This document shows, in pieces, positions 57,549-64,000 of a stretch of 64,000 bases of DNA. The stretch is from assembly GCF_030733745.1 (NCBI RefSeq), contig NZ_JASHIK010000003.1, forward strand, positions 1 through 64,000. Direction: 5' to 3'. The notes beneath the pieces were generated by a model. It made no database searches and was not told the DNA's origin. It was given only the letters and a program-made list of their open reading frames with translations. Both the position numbers and the translations under genes were made by a program. Position 1 is the stretch's first letter. The number at the start of each line of letters is the position of its first letter. Source of the stretch: Stappia sp. MMSF_3263 (GTDB lineage Bacteria; Pseudomonadota; Alphaproteobacteria; Rhizobiales; Stappiaceae).

Positions 57549-58199
57549 TTACGCCTGTGGCGGGCCGATCCGATCCGGATGGGCGTCGGCAAAGGCCGCC
57601 ATTTCGTTGCATGCAGCGTCAATGGCGACGAGACGCGGCAGGGGCGTGAGATCGATCCCCCAGCGCCGGGCATTGTACATCTGCGGCACAAGGCAGAGAT
57701 CTGCCAGTGTCGGCGTGTCGCCATGGCAGAAGCGCCCGGTCGCGGGATGGTCGAGCATCCGCTCCAGAGCCGAAAGCCCCTTCGAGATGAAGGTCTGCAT
57801 CCAGGTCGCCTTGGCGGCATCGCCGCCTCCGGTGAGATCGGCCACGTGCGAGGCGACCGAAAGGTTGCAGACCGGGTGGATCTCCATGGCGATGGCGTGG
57901 GCAAGCGCCCGCACCCGGTGCCGGCCGCCGGCATCACCCGGCATCAGTGACGATGTCTCAGGGTGGGTCTCGTGGAGATACTCGATGATCGCCAGCGACT
58001 GGGTGAGGTCGTGGCCGTCGACCGCCAGTGTCGGAACGAGGCCTTGCGGATTGCGCGCAAGGTTGTCGTCGGCCCGGTGCGCGCCGGTCAGCAGGTTGAC
58101 GGCGACCGTGTCGTGCTCGATGCCAAGCAGGTTGAGCGCGATGCGCACCCGGTAGCTCGCCGAAGAGCGCCAGTAGTCGTAAAGGACGGGTCGGGTCAC
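57549..58199 (-). CDS. maiA: Zeta-class glutathione S-transferase / maleylacetoacetate isomerase
   Basis: A 216-residue zeta GST. SSASYRVRIALNLLGI is the family's SSx-S-x-RVRIAL signature, and LTQSLAIIEYLHETHP gives the second glutathione site. The enzyme isomerises maleylacetoacetate to fumarylacetoacetate in tyrosine or homogentisate breakdown; dichloroacetate-type dehalogenation is the alternative. The GTG at 58199 follows GGAGAG with six-base spacing. No homogentisate genes are adjacent. The RutR-type site lies about 134 bp upstream, so control by RutR cannot be excluded. Confidence 0.88.
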   Translation of the reverse strand: MTRPVLYDYWRSSASYRVRIALNLLGIEHDTVAVNLLTGAHRADDNLARNPQGLVPTLAVDGHDLTQSLAIIEYLHETHPETSSLMPGDAGGRHRVRALAHAIAMEIHPVCNLSVASHVADLTGGGDAAKATWMQTFISKGLSALERMLDHPATGRFCHGDTPTLADLCLVPQMYNARRWGIDLTPLPRLVAIDAACNEMAAFADAHPDRIGPPQA

Positions 58200-58649
58200 G
58201 GGTCTCTCCCTGGATCTGAAGGGCGCCTGTCGGTGGCGCCGCCGGCCCGATATCGCACGGCCGGAACCCGGGGCCAAGCCTTGCGTGGTTGCCGCAGCGG
58301 CAGCCCGGCTTTCGGCCATTGCGACAAAAAATTTGACTATTTGGTCAAAATTCGGCCCAATGACATTCGGCGGACCCGCACCCGAGAAACGAGGCGCGTG
58401 CCGCATGCAATCGCCAGAGATGGCGCTGGACGAAAACGGGCCTCCTTCCGGACCCGAGAAAAACCGCGAAACCGCACGTCCCGCGCCCTGGAGCATCCGG
58501 CTTTCGCCGGAGACGGAAACGTTGCTCCAGCATTGAGGCCGGTCAGTTTTCGCACGCTCGATCGTCACGATTGAGCGTCGGCTGACCCAGAGGGGTAAAT
58601 CAGCGCCGGGAGCCGCCAGAGACGGCCCGGCCAATGCGGAGGTGCAGCC
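58200..58649. other. 450-bp divergent gap with RutR-type operator
   Basis: The gap between maiA and preT carries one clear site, the RutR-like palindrome at 58333-58348. To its right, 301 bp precede the preT start. A 43-residue frame (58406-58537) ends in WSIRLSPETETLLQH, which recalls the first strand of ribbon-helix-helix proteins but stops there; its coding status is doubtful. I see no RNA gene or terminator. Confidence 0.6.
58333..58348. promoter_or_regulatory. RutR-type operator TTGACYA-N2-TGGTCAA
   Basis: TTGACTATTTGGTCAA matches the RutR consensus TTGACCA-NN-TGGTCAA at 13 of 14 fixed positions; only one C is T. RutR senses uracil and thymine. The site is upstream of preT and preA, whose substrates are those pyrimidines, and a RutR orthologue is encoded at 63230-63871. 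This is strong evidence that RutR controls preTA. Confidence 0.85.
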
Positions 58650-60005
58650 ATGGCTGACGCGCTCGTTAGTCCCGACATTCGCGCGGGGCGCCTGACGGCG
58701 GACGATTATCTGGAGAACTTCGACGACCTGCACCCGCCGCTCGGCGTGCACGAGGCGCGGGTCGAGGCGGATCGCTGCTATTTCTGCTACGACGCGCCCT
58801 GCACGATCGCCTGTCCGACATCGATCGACATTCCCAAATTCATCCGGCAGATCTCGACCGGCAATCCGCTCGGCTCGGCGAAGACGATCTTCGAGCAGAA
58901 CATCCTTGGCGGGATGTGCGCCCGCGTCTGTCCGACGGAGACGCTGTGCGAGGAAGCCTGCGTGCGCAATCTCGCGGAGGACAAGCCCGTCGCCATCGGC
59001 CTGCTGCAGCGGCACGCGACGGACACCTATTTTGAACGCGATGAAAAGCACCCCTACGAGCGAGCCGCTTCGACCGGCAAGCATGTCGCCGTCGTCGGCG
59101 GCGGTCCGGCGGGTCTTGCCTGTGCCCATGCCCTGGCGCGCCAGGGTCACGATGTCACCATCTTTGAGGCCCGGCCGAAGCTCGGCGGTCTCAGCGAGTT
59201 CGGCATCGCCGCCTACAAGACCACCAACGATTTCGCCCAGGACGAGGTCGATTTCGTCCTCTCCATCGGCGGCATCTCGGTGGAGTGTAACAAGGCGCTC
59301 GGGCGCGACATCACGCTCGAGGCCCTGCGCCGCGACCATGACGCGGTGTTCCTTGGAGTGGGGCTTGCCGGCGTCAATGCGCTCCGGGCGGAGGGTGAGG
59401 ATCTTGCCGGCGTCATCGATGCCGTTGCCTATATCGCCGACCTGCGCCAGGCGAGCGACCTTTCCACCCTGCCCATCGGCCGCAAGGTCGTGGTCATCGG
59501 TGGCGGCATGACGGCCATCGACATCGCCGTGCAGGCCAAGCGCCTTGGCGCCGAGGAGGTGACGATCGCCTACCGGCGCGACCGGGAGGCGATGAAGGCC
59601 AGCGCCTACGAGCAGGAAGTCGCGCTCACCAATGGTGTCGTCATTCGCGAGTGTCTGGCGCCCAGGCGCCTGATCGGCGAGGCCGGACATGTGCGCGCCA
59701 TCGAACTGGAGCGGGTCGTCGCAGACAGTTCCGGCCGGCTTGCCGGTACCGGCGAGACAGTGACGCTGGAAGCGGACCAGGTCTTCAAGGCCATCGGGCA
59801 GACCTTCGTGCCGGACGGGCTCGGCGGGGCGGACGCACTCCGGCTCGATGGCGGGCGGATCGACGTCGATGCCGACCGCCGCACGTCGCTGCCCGACGTG
59901 TGGGCCGGCGGCGACTGTATCGAGGGCGGCGAGGACCTGACGGTCGCCGCGGTCGAGGACGGCAAGATCGCCGCCGCCGCCATCCATGCGGCACTGAGCG
60001 CCTGA
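58650..60005 (+). CDS. preT: NAD-dependent dihydropyrimidine dehydrogenase subunit PreT
   Basis: A 451-residue flavoprotein subunit. The N-terminal part has the cysteine-rich iron-sulfur region RCYFCYDAPCTIACPTSIDI and GMCARVCPTETLCEEACVRN. The FAD site is VAVVGGGPAGLACAHALARQ and the second nucleotide site VVVIGGGMTAIDIAVQAKR. With PreA it reduces uracil and thymine to dihydro forms in the reductive pyrimidine pathway. The ATG at 58650 is behind GGAGG at a seven-base spacing. preA follows after 59 bp. Confidence 0.94.
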   Translation: MADALVSPDIRAGRLTADDYLENFDDLHPPLGVHEARVEADRCYFCYDAPCTIACPTSIDIPKFIRQISTGNPLGSAKTIFEQNILGGMCARVCPTETLCEEACVRNLAEDKPVAIGLLQRHATDTYFERDEKHPYERAASTGKHVAVVGGGPAGLACAHALARQGHDVTIFEARPKLGGLSEFGIAAYKTTNDFAQDEVDFVLSIGGISVECNKALGRDITLEALRRDHDAVFLGVGLAGVNALRAEGEDLAGVIDAVAYIADLRQASDLSTLPIGRKVVVIGGGMTAIDIAVQAKRLGAEEVTIAYRRDREAMKASAYEQEVALTNGVVIRECLAPRRLIGEAGHVRAIELERVVADSSGRLAGTGETVTLEADQVFKAIGQTFVPDGLGGADALRLDGGRIDVDADRRTSLPDVWAGGDCIEGGEDLTVAAVEDGKIAAAAIHAALSA

Positions 60006-60064
60006 GGCGCCGCCCGCAGTCCCGCTTTTCCTTTCACCCCCGAACATGTGGGGAGGTTTTCGAA

Positions 60065-61375
60065 ATGGCCGATCTCAGCACCAATTTTCTCGGCATCAAG
60101 TCGCCCAATCCGTTCTGGCTCGCCTCCGCGCCGCCGACCGACAAGGAATACAACGTCGTGCGCGCCTTCAAGGCGGGCTGGGGCGGTGTCGTGTGGAAAA
60201 CGCTCGGCGAGGACCCGGCGGTGGTCAATGTCAACGGCCCGCGCTACGGCGCCGTCCACGGCCGCGACCGCAACGTCATCGGGTTCAACAACATCGAACT
60301 GATCACCGACCGCCCGCTTGAGGTGAACCTGCGCGAAATCAAGCAGGTTAAGCGAGACTGGCCCGACCGGGCGCTGGTGGTTTCGCTGATGGTGCCCTGC
60401 GAGGAACAGAACTGGATCGACATCCTGAGGCGCGTAGAGGAGACCGAGGCCGATGGCGTCGAGCTCAATTTCGGCTGCCCGCACGGCATGTCGGAGCGCG
60501 GCATGGGCTCGGCAGTCGGCCAGGTGCCGGAATATATCAAGATGGTCACCCGCTGGTGCAAGCAGAACACCCGCATGCCGGTGATCGTCAAGCTGACGCC
60601 GAACATCACGGATATCCGCAATCCGGCCCGTGCCGCGCATGCTGGCGGTGCCGATGCGGTCTCGCTGATCAACACGATCAACTCCATCGTCTCGGTCGAT
60701 CTCGATCAGATGGCGCCCAATCCGACAATCGACGGGCGCGGTGCCCATGGCGGCTATTGCGGGCCGGCGGTGAAGCCGATCGCGCTCAACATGGTGGCGG
60801 AGATCGCCCGCGATCCGCAGATGCGCGGCCTGCCCATATCCGGCATCGGCGGCGTCACCGACTGGCGCGACGCGGCGGAGTTCATGGCTTTGGGCGCCGG
60901 AACGGTGCAGGTCTGCACCGCGGCGATGGTCTACGGCTTCCGTGTGGTCGAAGACATGATCGACGGCCTGTCCGACTGGATGGACGAGAAGGGCTATACC
61001 TCGGTCGACCAGTTTGTCGGCCGCGCCGTGCCCAATGTCACCGACTGGCAGCAGCTCAACCTGAACTACGTGGTCAAGGCGCGCATCGACCAGGACGCCT
61101 GTATCCAGTGCGGCCGATGCCATATCGCCTGCGAGGACACCTCGCACCAGGCGATCACCGCGATGAAGGACGGGTTGCGGCACTTCGAGGTGATCGACGA
61201 GGAATGTGTCGGCTGCAACCTGTGCGTATCGGTCTGCCCGGTCGAGGATTGCATCACCATGGAACACATTGCCGAGGGCACCGATCCGCGCACCGGCAAG
61301 CCGATCAATCCGGACTACGCCAACTGGACGACCCATCCGAACAACCCCAACCGGGTGCAGGACGCGGCTGAATGA
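60065..61375 (+). CDS. preA: NAD-dependent dihydropyrimidine dehydrogenase subunit PreA
   Basis: A 436-residue subunit with an FMN-binding TIM barrel (residues 1-320: NPFWLASAPPTDKEYNVVRA, VELNFGCPHGMSERGMG, AHGGYCGPAVKPIAL) and a C-terminal ferredoxin domain with two clusters, CIQCGRCHIACEDTSHQ and CVGCNLCVSVCPVEDC. It binds the pyrimidine while PreT delivers electrons. The ATG at 60065 has GGGGAGG upstream. Hydropyrimidinase and beta-ureidopropionase, the next steps, are not in the window and may lie to the right. Confidence 0.95.
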   Translation: MADLSTNFLGIKSPNPFWLASAPPTDKEYNVVRAFKAGWGGVVWKTLGEDPAVVNVNGPRYGAVHGRDRNVIGFNNIELITDRPLEVNLREIKQVKRDWPDRALVVSLMVPCEEQNWIDILRRVEETEADGVELNFGCPHGMSERGMGSAVGQVPEYIKMVTRWCKQNTRMPVIVKLTPNITDIRNPARAAHAGGADAVSLINTINSIVSVDLDQMAPNPTIDGRGAHGGYCGPAVKPIALNMVAEIARDPQMRGLPISGIGGVTDWRDAAEFMALGAGTVQVCTAAMVYGFRVVEDMIDGLSDWMDEKGYTSVDQFVGRAVPNVTDWQQLNLNYVVKARIDQDACIQCGRCHIACEDTSHQAITAMKDGLRHFEVIDEECVGCNLCVSVCPVEDCITMEHIAEGTDPRTGKPINPDYANWTTHPNNPNRVQDAAE

Positions 61376-61400
61376 CTTCTTGCACGAAACGGCGGGTGCG

Positions 61401-62309
61401 GTGACGGTCGGCACCGCACCTCCAGAGGACGAAACCGGGCGCGCTCATGTGGCGATGCTCGGTTTCGTGTTTCTCGTCTCCACGTCCTTCCCTGTCGGAC
61501 ACGCGATCACGGCCGCGCTCGACCCGGCCGTGCTCACGGCCTTGCGCTTCTGCATCGCCGCGGCGATCTTTGCCGGCATGGCCACCGCCAAGCGGCAATG
61601 GCATCGGCCGAAGCTTGCGCGGCTGCCGGTCTATTTTCTGATCGCGCTGCTGCTCGACATATTCTTCGTGACCATGTTCGAGGCGCTGCGACTGACGAGC
61701 GCGCTCAATGCCGGAGCGGTCTTCACGCTGCTGCCGGCGTTTACAGCCCTTGCCGGCCTGATGCTGCTCGGCCAGCGGATCTCGCGCTTTCAGACGGTCT
61801 GCCTGGCGGTTGGGGCTGGAGGTGCGTTGCTTGTCCTGTTCGGCTCGGACCTCTCGCGGCTCGCAAGGCTCGAGTTCGGCGAAGGGGAGCGGATCTACCT
61901 CCTAGGTGTCGCCGCCTATGCCTTCTATGCGCCGCTGATGCGGCTGCTCAACAAGGGTGAGCCGCTCGAGCACTTCAATTTCTGGATCCTGGTCTGCGGG
62001 GCCGTGATGTTGCTGGCCTACGGCCGGAAGGAGTTGGCGGCGACGGACTGGATCGCGGTCCCGCCGGCCGTCTATCTCGGGATCGCCTATCTGGCGGTGT
62101 TTCCGACGGCGACCAGTTTCTTCTGCGCCACTTATGCCAGCCTGCGCCTGCCCTCCGGCCCGGTGATGGCCTACACCTATCTGCTGCCGTCCTTCGTGCT
62201 GGCCGAGACGCTGGCGCTGGGCGCATCCTGGCCGGGCCTGTGGACCGTTGCCGGCGTGCTGGTGACGGCCGTCGCGACCGTCCTCCTGCAGCGCCGGACC
62301 GGCCGCTAG
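61401..62309 (+). CDS. EamA/DMT-family transporter
   Basis: A roughly 302-residue transporter with ten hydrophobic helices and the two EamA repeats (TALRFCIAAAIFAGMATAKRQ, TSALNAGAVFTLLPAFTALA and VMAYTYLLPSFVLAETLALG). DMT proteins export amino acids, nucleobases or metabolites. The start is uncertain: GTG 61401 is taken, with TTG 61380, GTG 61449 and ATG 61455 as alternatives. It begins 26 bp after preA, so it may belong to the pyrimidine operon, though the cargo is unknown. Confidence 0.83.
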   Translation: MTVGTAPPEDETGRAHVAMLGFVFLVSTSFPVGHAITAALDPAVLTALRFCIAAAIFAGMATAKRQWHRPKLARLPVYFLIALLLDIFFVTMFEALRLTSALNAGAVFTLLPAFTALAGLMLLGQRISRFQTVCLAVGAGGALLVLFGSDLSRLARLEFGEGERIYLLGVAAYAFYAPLMRLLNKGEPLEHFNFWILVCGAVMLLAYGRKELAATDWIAVPPAVYLGIAYLAVFPTATSFFCATYASLRLPSGPVMAYTYLLPSFVLAETLALGASWPGLWTVAGVLVTAVATVLLQRRTGR

Positions 62310-62324
62310 TCTGTTCTCCTGTCG

Positions 62325-63128
62325 CTAGCGACGGAGCTGCGTTGCGAAATGGGCGATGGTCTTGCGATAGACTTCCGCTCTGTTCCAGTCCCTCAGCACC
62401 CCGTAGTTGCGGCTGCCCGGCGACCAGTCGCCCCCCTTGCTCCAGCCGTGCTGGCGCAGGAAGTTCGCGGTCGAGGCAAAGACGTCCGGCGTGCTCCGGA
62501 TCAGGTTGGGGCGTCCGTCGCCGTCGAAGTCGACCGCGTAGCGTTCGTAGCTGGAGGCCAGGAATTGCGTCTGGCCGATCTCGCCCGCCCAGGCACCTTT
62601 CATGTCGGCAATCCGCATCTGGCCGCGATCGGCGATCCGCAAGGCGCTCATCAGTTCGTTGGTGAAGAATGCCGAGCGGCGGCAGTCATAGGCGAGCGCG
62701 GAGAGCGAGGAAAAGATCGGGATGTTGCCCATGAAGCCGCCGAAGCCGGATTCGAGCCCCCAGATCGAAACGATGACTTCCTTGGGGACGCCGTACTTGC
62801 GCTCGACCCGGTCGAGTACTCTTGCATGCTGCTGCATCCGGCGCTTGCCCATGGCGATCGTGGAGGGTGGCGCGCGACGGGCGAGAAACTGCTCGAACGA
62901 AAGCTTGAAGGATTTCTGGTTGCGGTCGAGGCGGATGACCTTGCGGTTGTAGGTCATGTTCCCGAGCGCGGCCTCGACCGTGCGGCTGGAGATGCCCGAC
63001 GCGACCGCCTCGCGCTTGAACGCGGCAAGCCACTTGGGAAAGCCTTGGGCATTGTTGCCGCACTTGGCGGCTTCCGCGGTTCCGCTCGCAAGCATAATTA
63101 AACCGGCAATGAGAAGGGCCTTGCGCAT
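62325..63128 (-). CDS. MltB-type lytic murein transglycosylase
   Basis: A 267-residue periplasmic enzyme. The signal peptide covers about residues 1-20 (cleavage after GTAEA). SIWGLESGFGGFMGNIP holds the catalytic Glu126, and GEIGQTQFLASSYERYAVDFDGDG and NFLRQHGWSKGGDW are typical MltB blocks. It cleaves peptidoglycan with formation of a 1,6-anhydro end. It lacks a lipobox, so it is soluble. The ATG at 63128 is the family's signal start. It converges with the EamA gene, 15 bp apart. Confidence 0.92.
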   Translation of the reverse strand: MRKALLIAGLIMLASGTAEAAKCGNNAQGFPKWLAAFKREAVASGISSRTVEAALGNMTYNRKVIRLDRNQKSFKLSFEQFLARRAPPSTIAMGKRRMQQHARVLDRVERKYGVPKEVIVSIWGLESGFGGFMGNIPIFSSLSALAYDCRRSAFFTNELMSALRIADRGQMRIADMKGAWAGEIGQTQFLASSYERYAVDFDGDGRPNLIRSTPDVFASTANFLRQHGWSKGGDWSPGSRNYGVLRDWNRAEVYRKTIAHFATQLRR

Positions 63129-63229
63129 GGAATCTCCCGTCCTGTGGCATGGCGCCGCGCAACCCGCCAACCGGATCCGCGACCGCACGCCAGCCATCGG
63201 AATGCAGGATACAAGCCGCAAGGCCAAGA

Positions 63230-63871
63230 TCAAGCGCGCGGCAGCAGGCCGCCGAAGATCAGGTCGGTGAGCGAGGCCAGGGCCTCCTTGCGGAATTTCG
63301 GATCGTCGATGCCGGTGCCGGTGATCGCCTCGATCTGCGGGGCGAAATCGGCATAGGTCTGGGTTGTCGCCCAGATCAGGAAAATGAGGTGATGCGGATC
63401 GACGGGCCGTATCCGGCCGCGCTCCGCCCAATGGCGCAACACCTCGGACTTCTCGTCGACAAGCGCCTTCAAAGGGCCTTCCAACACGTCGCGGATCATT
63501 GGCGCGCCTTGCATCACCTCGCTGGCGAAGAGCCGAGAGGCTTCCGGATGCTCGGCTGAAAAGCGCAGTTTCTGTTCGATATAGGCGGCAAGTTCGGTGC
63601 GCGGATCGCCGTCGGGGTCGAGGGTGCGCAAGGGCGCCAGCCATCGGTCGAGCAGGTCGGCCAGCACCGCCTTGTAGATCTCCGACTTGGAACCGAAATA
63701 GTACAGAAGGTTCGACTTCGACATGCCCGCATCCTCGGCGATCTGATCGACGCGGGCGCCGCGGTAGCCGAAGCGCGAAAACACGGAAAGCGCCGCATCG
63801 AGGATCCGCGCCCGGTTCTTCTCCTGGATACGGGTGCGCGGCGTGTCCTGTTGCGGGGCGGTGCTGTCCAT
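63230..63871 (-). CDS. rutR: TetR-family pyrimidine regulator RutR
   Basis: A 213-residue TetR repressor that aligns with E. coli RutR throughout: VDQIAEDAGMSKSNLLYYFGSK in the HTH, DRWLAPLRTLDPDGDP, HPEASRLFASEVMQGAPMI, GPLKALVDEKSEVLRHW, RIRPVDPHHLIFLIWATTQTY and ADFAPQIEAITG. RutR binds TTGACCANNTGGTCAA and is released by uracil or thymine. A near-perfect copy of that site lies upstream of preT, giving a local pyrimidine circuit. The ATG at 63871 has an AGGGA site. It is 9 bp after an incomplete gene's stop. Confidence 0.93.
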   Translation of the reverse strand: MDSTAPQQDTPRTRIQEKNRARILDAALSVFSRFGYRGARVDQIAEDAGMSKSNLLYYFGSKSEIYKAVLADLLDRWLAPLRTLDPDGDPRTELAAYIEQKLRFSAEHPEASRLFASEVMQGAPMIRDVLEGPLKALVDEKSEVLRHWAERGRIRPVDPHHLIFLIWATTQTYADFAPQIEAITGTGIDDPKFRKEALASLTDLIFGGLLPRA

Positions 63872-63880
63872 GGTCCCTGC

Positions 63881-64000
63881 CTATCTTCCCGGCGCGGTTG
63901 CGTCGCCGTTGGGGGCGGTCCGTGCCACTGCGCCGCCAAGCGCGGGGGAGGTGGCGCCGATTCCCGCCAGAATGATGCCGATCACCGTTTGCTTCGCCTC
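63881..64000 (-). CDS. Partial gene running off the right edge (C-terminal 39 residues)
   Basis: An open leftward frame enters from the window edge and ends at TAG 63881-63883. The visible end reads EAKQTVIGIILAGIGATSPA and then a short polar tail; it is hydrophobic like the last membrane helix of a transporter. It is 9 bp ahead of rutR, a spacing typical of operons. A pyrimidine permease would be sensible, but nothing in 39 residues proves it, and chance is not excluded. Confidence 0.35.
   Translation of the reverse strand, partial: EAKQTVIGIILAGIGATSPALGGAVARTAPNGDATAPGR

Follow-up and report, generated by a model that had tools for sequence, protein, structure and literature searches.

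A probable RutR-type operator upstream of preTA in Stappia sp. MMSF_3263, with two tandem RutR-family regulators and a predicted circuit for reductive pyrimidine catabolism

Regulators of the RutR type have been linked to pyrimidine catabolism in several bacteria. The rut operon and carAB are under the control of RutR in Escherichia coli, and uracil impairs the binding of this regulator to DNA, as set out in passages of PMC10891134. For Pseudomonas putida, PydR has been published as a RutR-like regulator that represses dihydropyrimidine dehydrogenase (Hidese et al. 2012, J. Biochem. 152:341; as cited in the reference list of PMC7332683). RutR regulons assigned to 'pyrimidine catabolism' have also been reconstructed across 68 genomes of 13 taxonomic groups, with a mosaic distribution of the regulator and taxon-specific substitutions in its motif, according to main-text parts of the survey (Leyn et al. 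2016, PMC5343134). Here, we describe a locus in Stappia sp. MMSF_3263, a member of an environmental marine genus, studied in positions 1-64000 of contig NZ_JASHIK010000003.1 (hereafter, the window) and in the next 12 kb of that contig, within a genome of 5.02 Mb. A palindrome at 58333-58348 lies upstream of preT and preA, which encode the two subunits of dihydropyrimidine dehydrogenase, and we consider it likely, from the sequence comparisons below, that it serves as operator for a RutR-family repressor of preTA, one that is relieved by uracil or thymine and also covers the genes of the later steps. RutR-like control of dihydropyrimidine dehydrogenase is already known; the points worth following are the tandem paralogues of the regulator and a missing panD gene.

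The palindrome, TTGACTATTTGGTCAA, to which no strand is assigned, agrees at 13 of 14 fixed positions with TTGACCANNTGGTCAA, which we take to be the RutR consensus; the latter was supplied with a first-pass annotation of this DNA, and it was not found printed in the paper text searched. That annotation had placed such a site, with the same score, in the gap before preT, and its distance of 301 base pairs (bp) to the preT ATG (58650) is correct, while the distance to the maiA GTG (58199) is 133 bp instead of 134 bp. None of 20,000 first-order Markov resamples of the 450-bp maiA-preT gap contained a site at ≤1 mismatch. At this same threshold, the pattern TTGACYANNTRGTCAA occurs at six places in the genome, three of which cluster within 6.4 kb at the preT/rutR locus, and the remaining three fall within open, putatively coding frames of at least 120 amino acids.

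Two RutR-family genes stand beyond preA on the minus strand. The first, at 63230-63871, encodes RutR1 (213 amino acids), a TetR regulator of the RutR clade according to its E. coli match, its TetR_C_3 'YcdC-like' domain and the trees below; the end-to-end alignment with RutR claimed earlier is confirmed by a phmmer match of 213 bits to E. coli RutR (3loc/6z1b) over residues 11-212 of 213. The second, RutR2 (231 amino acids, 63881-64576), is assigned to the family by its matches and tree position and straddles the window edge, with 63881-64000 inside; its gene ends 9 bp upstream of rutR1, and the protein is 38% identical to RutR1 and scores 159 bits against E. coli RutR. Both exceed the Pfam gathering scores of TetR_N and TetR_C_3. 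The uracil contacts given for E. coli RutR in a passage of PMC10891134 (W77, Y97, W167, Q171 and Q179) are all kept in 100/100 RutR1-like proteins, 33/33 RutR2 proteins and 10/10 Pseudomonas proteins that are discussed below; in seven other gammaproteobacterial relatives W77 is found in five and Y97 in six, and Q179 is missing in two distant outlier rows. Lysines 52 and 62 are kept in the same 100/100 RutR1-like and 33/33 RutR2 proteins, and lysine 52 is replaced by arginine in all ten PreA-linked Pseudomonas regulators. Of the 36 loci that carry both genes, 18 have a putative rutR1 start codon 4 bp before the rutR2 end, a possible overlap (12/20 loci of relatives and 6/16 named loci); in the window the two genes are 9 bp apart. 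No paper on tandem RutR paralogues was recognised by its title or the start of its abstract among the matches listed, in a search for which subscription literature was mostly outside reach.

The site upstream of preT is conserved in relatives. RutR-family genes were present in 29 of 41 genomes at an expectation value (E) of 1e-20, and the 28 others supplied 30 regions, each no longer than 20 kb; together with the window these gave 31 loci, of which 20 carry both RutR1 and RutR2 types, 9 carry RutR1 only with pathway genes, and 2 carry distant relatives. Within the host's own family, Stappiaceae, preT was present in 17 of 24 loci, the other seven having no preT in the 20-kb region and standing outside the site count. 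All 17 have a site at ≤1 mismatch in the 320 bp searched upstream of preT; 60 first-order Markov resamples never gave one, nor did the reversed pattern in any of the 17. The site stands 163-233 bp from preT in 15 of these loci; the two others are G022, at 84 bp, and the window, at 301 bp. When the 13 maiA-preT loci were aligned, the conserved core continued past the site towards preT for about 13 bp.

Past the window edge, the divergent gap beyond rutR2 contains two further predicted operators, TTGACCGGATGGTCAA (contig 64658-64673) and TTGACCATTTGGTCAG (64691-64706), 33 bp apart from start to start. This spacing recurs in 22 of 27 close pairs across all loci, with two pairs at 31 bp, two at 34 bp and one at 35 bp. 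The pair faces a divergent gene row (65059-71676) for an AptA-type aminotransferase, a methylmalonate-semialdehyde dehydrogenase (MMSDH), a cupin, an amidase of the hydantoinase/carbamoylase family, an exporter and a dihydropyrimidinase, followed by an ATP-binding cassette (ABC) transporter with an NMT1-type binding protein. Four NCBIfam models (NF052567, TIGR01722, TIGR01879 and TIGR02033) score above cut-off in the row; the LysE/RhtB-type exporter is below its cut-off (138.8 vs 184), the cupin was assigned by eye, and the amidase is a putative beta-ureidopropionase whose best model is named for allantoate amidohydrolase. Together, preTA and this row could make up a complete reductive pyrimidine pathway. 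In the whole genome, RutA reached at best 23.9 bits against a cut-off of 498 and RutB gave no match at E 0.001, in searches that detected both families in the E. coli control.

From the observed sites, genes, conservation and pocket residues we infer a circuit whose binding, repressive sign, ligand, operon structure and assignment of paralogues to sites are predictions. Palindromes of the TTGACCANNTGGTCAA type would serve as binding sites for RutR1 and probably also for RutR2: a single one precedes preT, and a pair occupies the gap from which rutR2-rutR1 and the later-step genes diverge. When uracil is scarce, the bound regulators would repress; occupation of the W77/Y97/W167/Q171/Q179' pocket by uracil or thymine would release them from the DNA, which would switch on preTA together with the dihydropyrimidinase, beta-ureidopropionase, aminotransferase, semialdehyde dehydrogenase and transporter, and also the regulators' own genes by autoregulation. 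The local pyrimidine-sensing circuit proposed in the first-pass annotation thus keeps its conserved operator-like site but is not one site with one regulator, since it includes a second RutR-family gene, two more predicted operators and a putative later-step operon. With preT as the likely target, the predicted circuit widens to the entire reductive pathway, and looser sites appear in most loci outside the family.

These loci outside the family came from a scan of named genomes that confirmed at least 590 relatives; the best 80 of these make up the sample used here, which was thus picked by likeness to RutR1; among these best 80, the nearest named relatives of RutR1 are from Stappia. Sixteen of the 80 loci have both paralogue types, all with pathway genes, and 52 have RutR1 only with pathway genes; 5 carry rut genes (Pseudomonas, Stutzerimonas and Salinicola), and 7 have neither in the flank examined. 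Three loci (L068, L069 and L140) appear to repeat the genomes G001, G013 and G009 and were left out of the trees, preT counts, pair spacing and residue counts, but the 80-locus neighborhood count still includes them. A preT site at ≤3 mismatches was found in 41 of 48 loci outside the family (320 bp searched), compared with a mean of 0.37 and a maximum of 2 in 60 resamples and 1/48 for the reversed pattern. The exact variant TTTACCANNTGATAAA, defined post hoc, occurs in 19 of the 48, all Rhodobacterales by record name. Reductive-pathway genes adjoin the regulator in 68 of the best 80 loci and rut genes in 5. The earlier proposal that the regulator here controls PreTA instead of rut is consistent with the missing RutA and RutB and with the conserved preT site, but such an arrangement is not unusual, given these 68 loci and the published PydR.

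Two trees, both with midpoint roots and a long-branch warning, place the paralogues in separate groups. In the 148-row tree, E. coli RutR falls together with the RutR1-like proteins in a group whose support is 99 in the Shimodaira-Hasegawa-like approximate likelihood ratio test (SH-aLRT), and a RutR2 group (33 of the 34 rows so labelled plus three gammaproteobacterial proteins) has an SH-aLRT of 86. The rut-linked rows, including those of E. coli and Pseudomonas, nest inside the RutR1 group among rows that adjoin reductive genes, so the textbook rut role of RutR may be the derived one in this unrooted tree of proteins chosen by likeness to RutR1; the direction of evolution is only suggested because of this sampling, the midpoint roots and the flagged long branches. 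PreA gave no match at 1e-60 in five rut-bearing gammaproteobacterial genomes. Of the 59 genomes in a Pseudomonas-centred sample, 34 gave a PreA homologue, and in the ten of these 34 whose locus was read its neighbor is a regulator of the RutR2 type (47-50% identity). In a second tree, made without 20 locus ids (near-duplicates, long branches and L068/L069/L140), a 40-row set of RutR2 proteins, the ten Pseudomonas regulators and six other gammaproteobacterial proteins has an SH-aLRT of 99, with RutR1 outside. An exclusive clade of RutR2 and the ten Pseudomonas proteins was rejected (p 0.0276), other gammaproteobacterial proteins being interspersed.

Set beside the described systems, the Stappia locus combines shared and distinct features. 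It resembles the PydR system in having a regulator neighborhood and a predicted operator at preTA; RutR2, but not RutR1, falls in a set with the PreA-linked Pseudomonas regulators, which are presumably PydR judging by their position. Unlike the window, the ten Pseudomonas loci have the regulator downstream of preA on the opposite strand, with R52 and no TTGACCANNTGGTCAA site at preT, whereas the window locus has two paralogues and three sites. RutR1 shares with E. coli RutR a near-full-length alignment and the same pocket and DNA-contact residues; unlike in E. coli, RutA and RutB were not found in the window genome. The rutA-rutR gap of E. coli contains TGGACTAAACGGTCAA at three mismatches, which is not above chance (70 of 200 shuffles of a 9.5-kb stretch). 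The circuit also fits the mosaic, taxon-specific-motif picture drawn in parts of the RegPrecise account of RutR regulons; neither tandem paralogues nor alphaproteobacterial targets appear in the main-text parts of that account.

Several observations weigh against RutR-family control of preTA through this site. At ≤2 mismatches, the motif occurs at 42 places in the genome and the reversed control pattern at 48, which means that the weak matches are noise, and a genome-wide regulon drawn from the motif alone was rejected; in the genome-wide search for the box suggested in the first-pass annotation, three of the six places at ≤1 mismatch are at this locus. A consensus scan of the maiA-preT gap found no sigma-70-like promoter, so the action of the site on transcription is only a proposal, and site and preT are farther apart in the window (301 bp) than in any of the 16 remaining family loci (84-233 bp). 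Outside the family, 7 of 48 loci lack a preT site at ≤3 mismatches, as do the ten Pseudomonas preTA loci with a RutR2-type neighbor. Finally, RutR1 falls below the NCBIfam RutR equivalog cut-offs of TIGR03613 (261.4 vs 368) and NF011584 (227.5 vs 230), and RutR2 does so as well (204.6 vs 368 and 179.5 vs 230). A RutR-family gene does lie 5 kb from the site, but because RutR1 misses these cut-offs, 'RutR-clade regulator' is a safer name than 'RutR itself', as it had been called.

The lack of excess among two-mismatch matches is what would be expected if the palindrome at 58333 had arisen by chance or served a TetR protein of another kind as operator; however, its position and sequence are conserved across the family as well as in alphaproteobacteria beyond it, and the regulator genes lie close by together with two more sites, which makes this explanation highly improbable. 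A different question is which gene the site serves, a matter that the first-pass annotation had left undecided. The site could mainly control maiA, or both divergent genes, as it is nearer maiA in the window and maiA adjoins preT in 13 of the 17 family loci. The remaining four loci, however, keep the preT site with no maiA match in the 20-kb region, in six relatives, seven MaiA-like genes (46-63% identity) lack a site, the closest matches within 450 bp having 4-6 mismatches, and the site form is also found at preT in the loci outside the family. Since the site stays with preT in four loci without maiA alongside, preT is the likelier target, maiA is probably a neighbor that was set aside on this comparative evidence, and we regard control of maiA, alone or with preT, as improbable.

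The choice of paralogue is less clear-cut. RutR2, instead of RutR1, could work at the preT site, with RutR1 redundant or serving something else: RutR2 groups with the Pseudomonas regulators linked to PreA, its identity to the window copy is slightly higher than that of RutR1 where a family locus carries both genes (68-88% vs 60-86%), and rutR2 directly adjoins two predicted operators. Nevertheless, G017, whose sole RutR-family match at E 1e-20 is of the RutR1 type, keeps an identical preT operator and also has a site at the aminotransferase gap, RutR2 never occurs without RutR1 among the family loci retrieved, and the Pseudomonas RutR2-type proteins combine an arginine at position 52 with the lack of such an operator. 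Because of G017, RutR1 alone probably suffices at the preT site, and an exclusive role of RutR2 there appears rather unlikely.

The repressor of preTA proposed here may also bear on biosynthesis. The aspartate decarboxylase family of panD (PF02261) was not found in the window genome, and among 40 relatives G032 gave a match while the other 39 gave none, in a search that detected the family in 8 of 14 control genomes; panC is present in the window genome. Rhizobium etli CFN42 has no panD and obtains its beta-alanine through the beta-alanine synthase that acts in the breakdown of uracil, according to a passage of PMC7142369. By analogy, the Stappia pathway may feed coenzyme A (CoA) synthesis through beta-alanine, and a uracil-responsive repressor may govern a vitamin supply. 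A tight link between panD and the pathway is weakened by the 11 of 12 genomes without a RutR-family match that are also without a panD match, which implies other beta-alanine sources in relatives or a search that misses some genes; glutamate decarboxylase or the aminotransferase may also be a source. We also considered a circuit of two sensors, in which RutR-type and PydR-type paralogues, as two homodimers or a heterodimer, would share one set of operators and read different pyrimidine signals. The pathway that they tune would then be more than catabolic, as the chief supplier of the beta-alanine needed for pantothenate and CoA. With the pathway as main source in the absence of panD, repression would have to be leaky or lifted by a biosynthetic signal, and we hold this reading to be doubtful.

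The genes around the site are assigned as follows. preT (58650-60005, plus strand, 451 amino acids) precedes preA and encodes the putative NAD/FAD (nicotinamide and flavin adenine dinucleotide) subunit, with the Pfam domains Fer4_20, described as 'dihydropyrimidine dehydrogenase domain II', and Pyr_redox_2; it reached no NCBIfam cut-off among the 25 families shown. preA (60065-61375, plus strand, 436 amino acids) encodes the catalytic subunit and matches the PreA equivalog NF006183 at 751.8 bits (cut-off 335), and maiA (57549-58199, minus strand) is a maleylacetoacetate isomerase gene by TIGR01262 (263.6 bits, cut-off 171). About 100 bp at about 58495-58610, between the operator and preT, are absent from 12 aligned relatives. 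rutR1 sits 1.9 kb past preA, with genes for an EamA-type transporter and a transglycosylase in between (61206-63128); in many other named-genome loci, the first matched gene that follows the regulator is preA.

In the Pseudomonas loci, the aligned preT gaps show other conserved stretches, and upstream of hydA (L201-L210) the conserved stretch CCTGTCAAGTGCGTCAAAATGG, found in 9 of 10 loci, may be an operator of the regulator there. Elsewhere, a Bmp/PnrA-type transporter gene may be another target of RutR-family regulators: it is preceded, at 231 and 212 bp, by the palindromes TTGACCAGACGATCAA and TTGTCCATTTGTTCAA (G000:C9:106544-106578; L168 3045-3079), with two mismatches each and 19 bp apart. 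The pair is kept in 13 of 14 genomes of the genus at ≤3 mismatches each, with one site only in G001. In more distant relatives, no RutR-like site was found upstream of the Bmp gene in G029 and G033, and one is present at loci L197, L199 and L200, in G015 (22 bp, two mismatches), G030 (167 bp, two mismatches) and G034 (46 bp, one mismatch).

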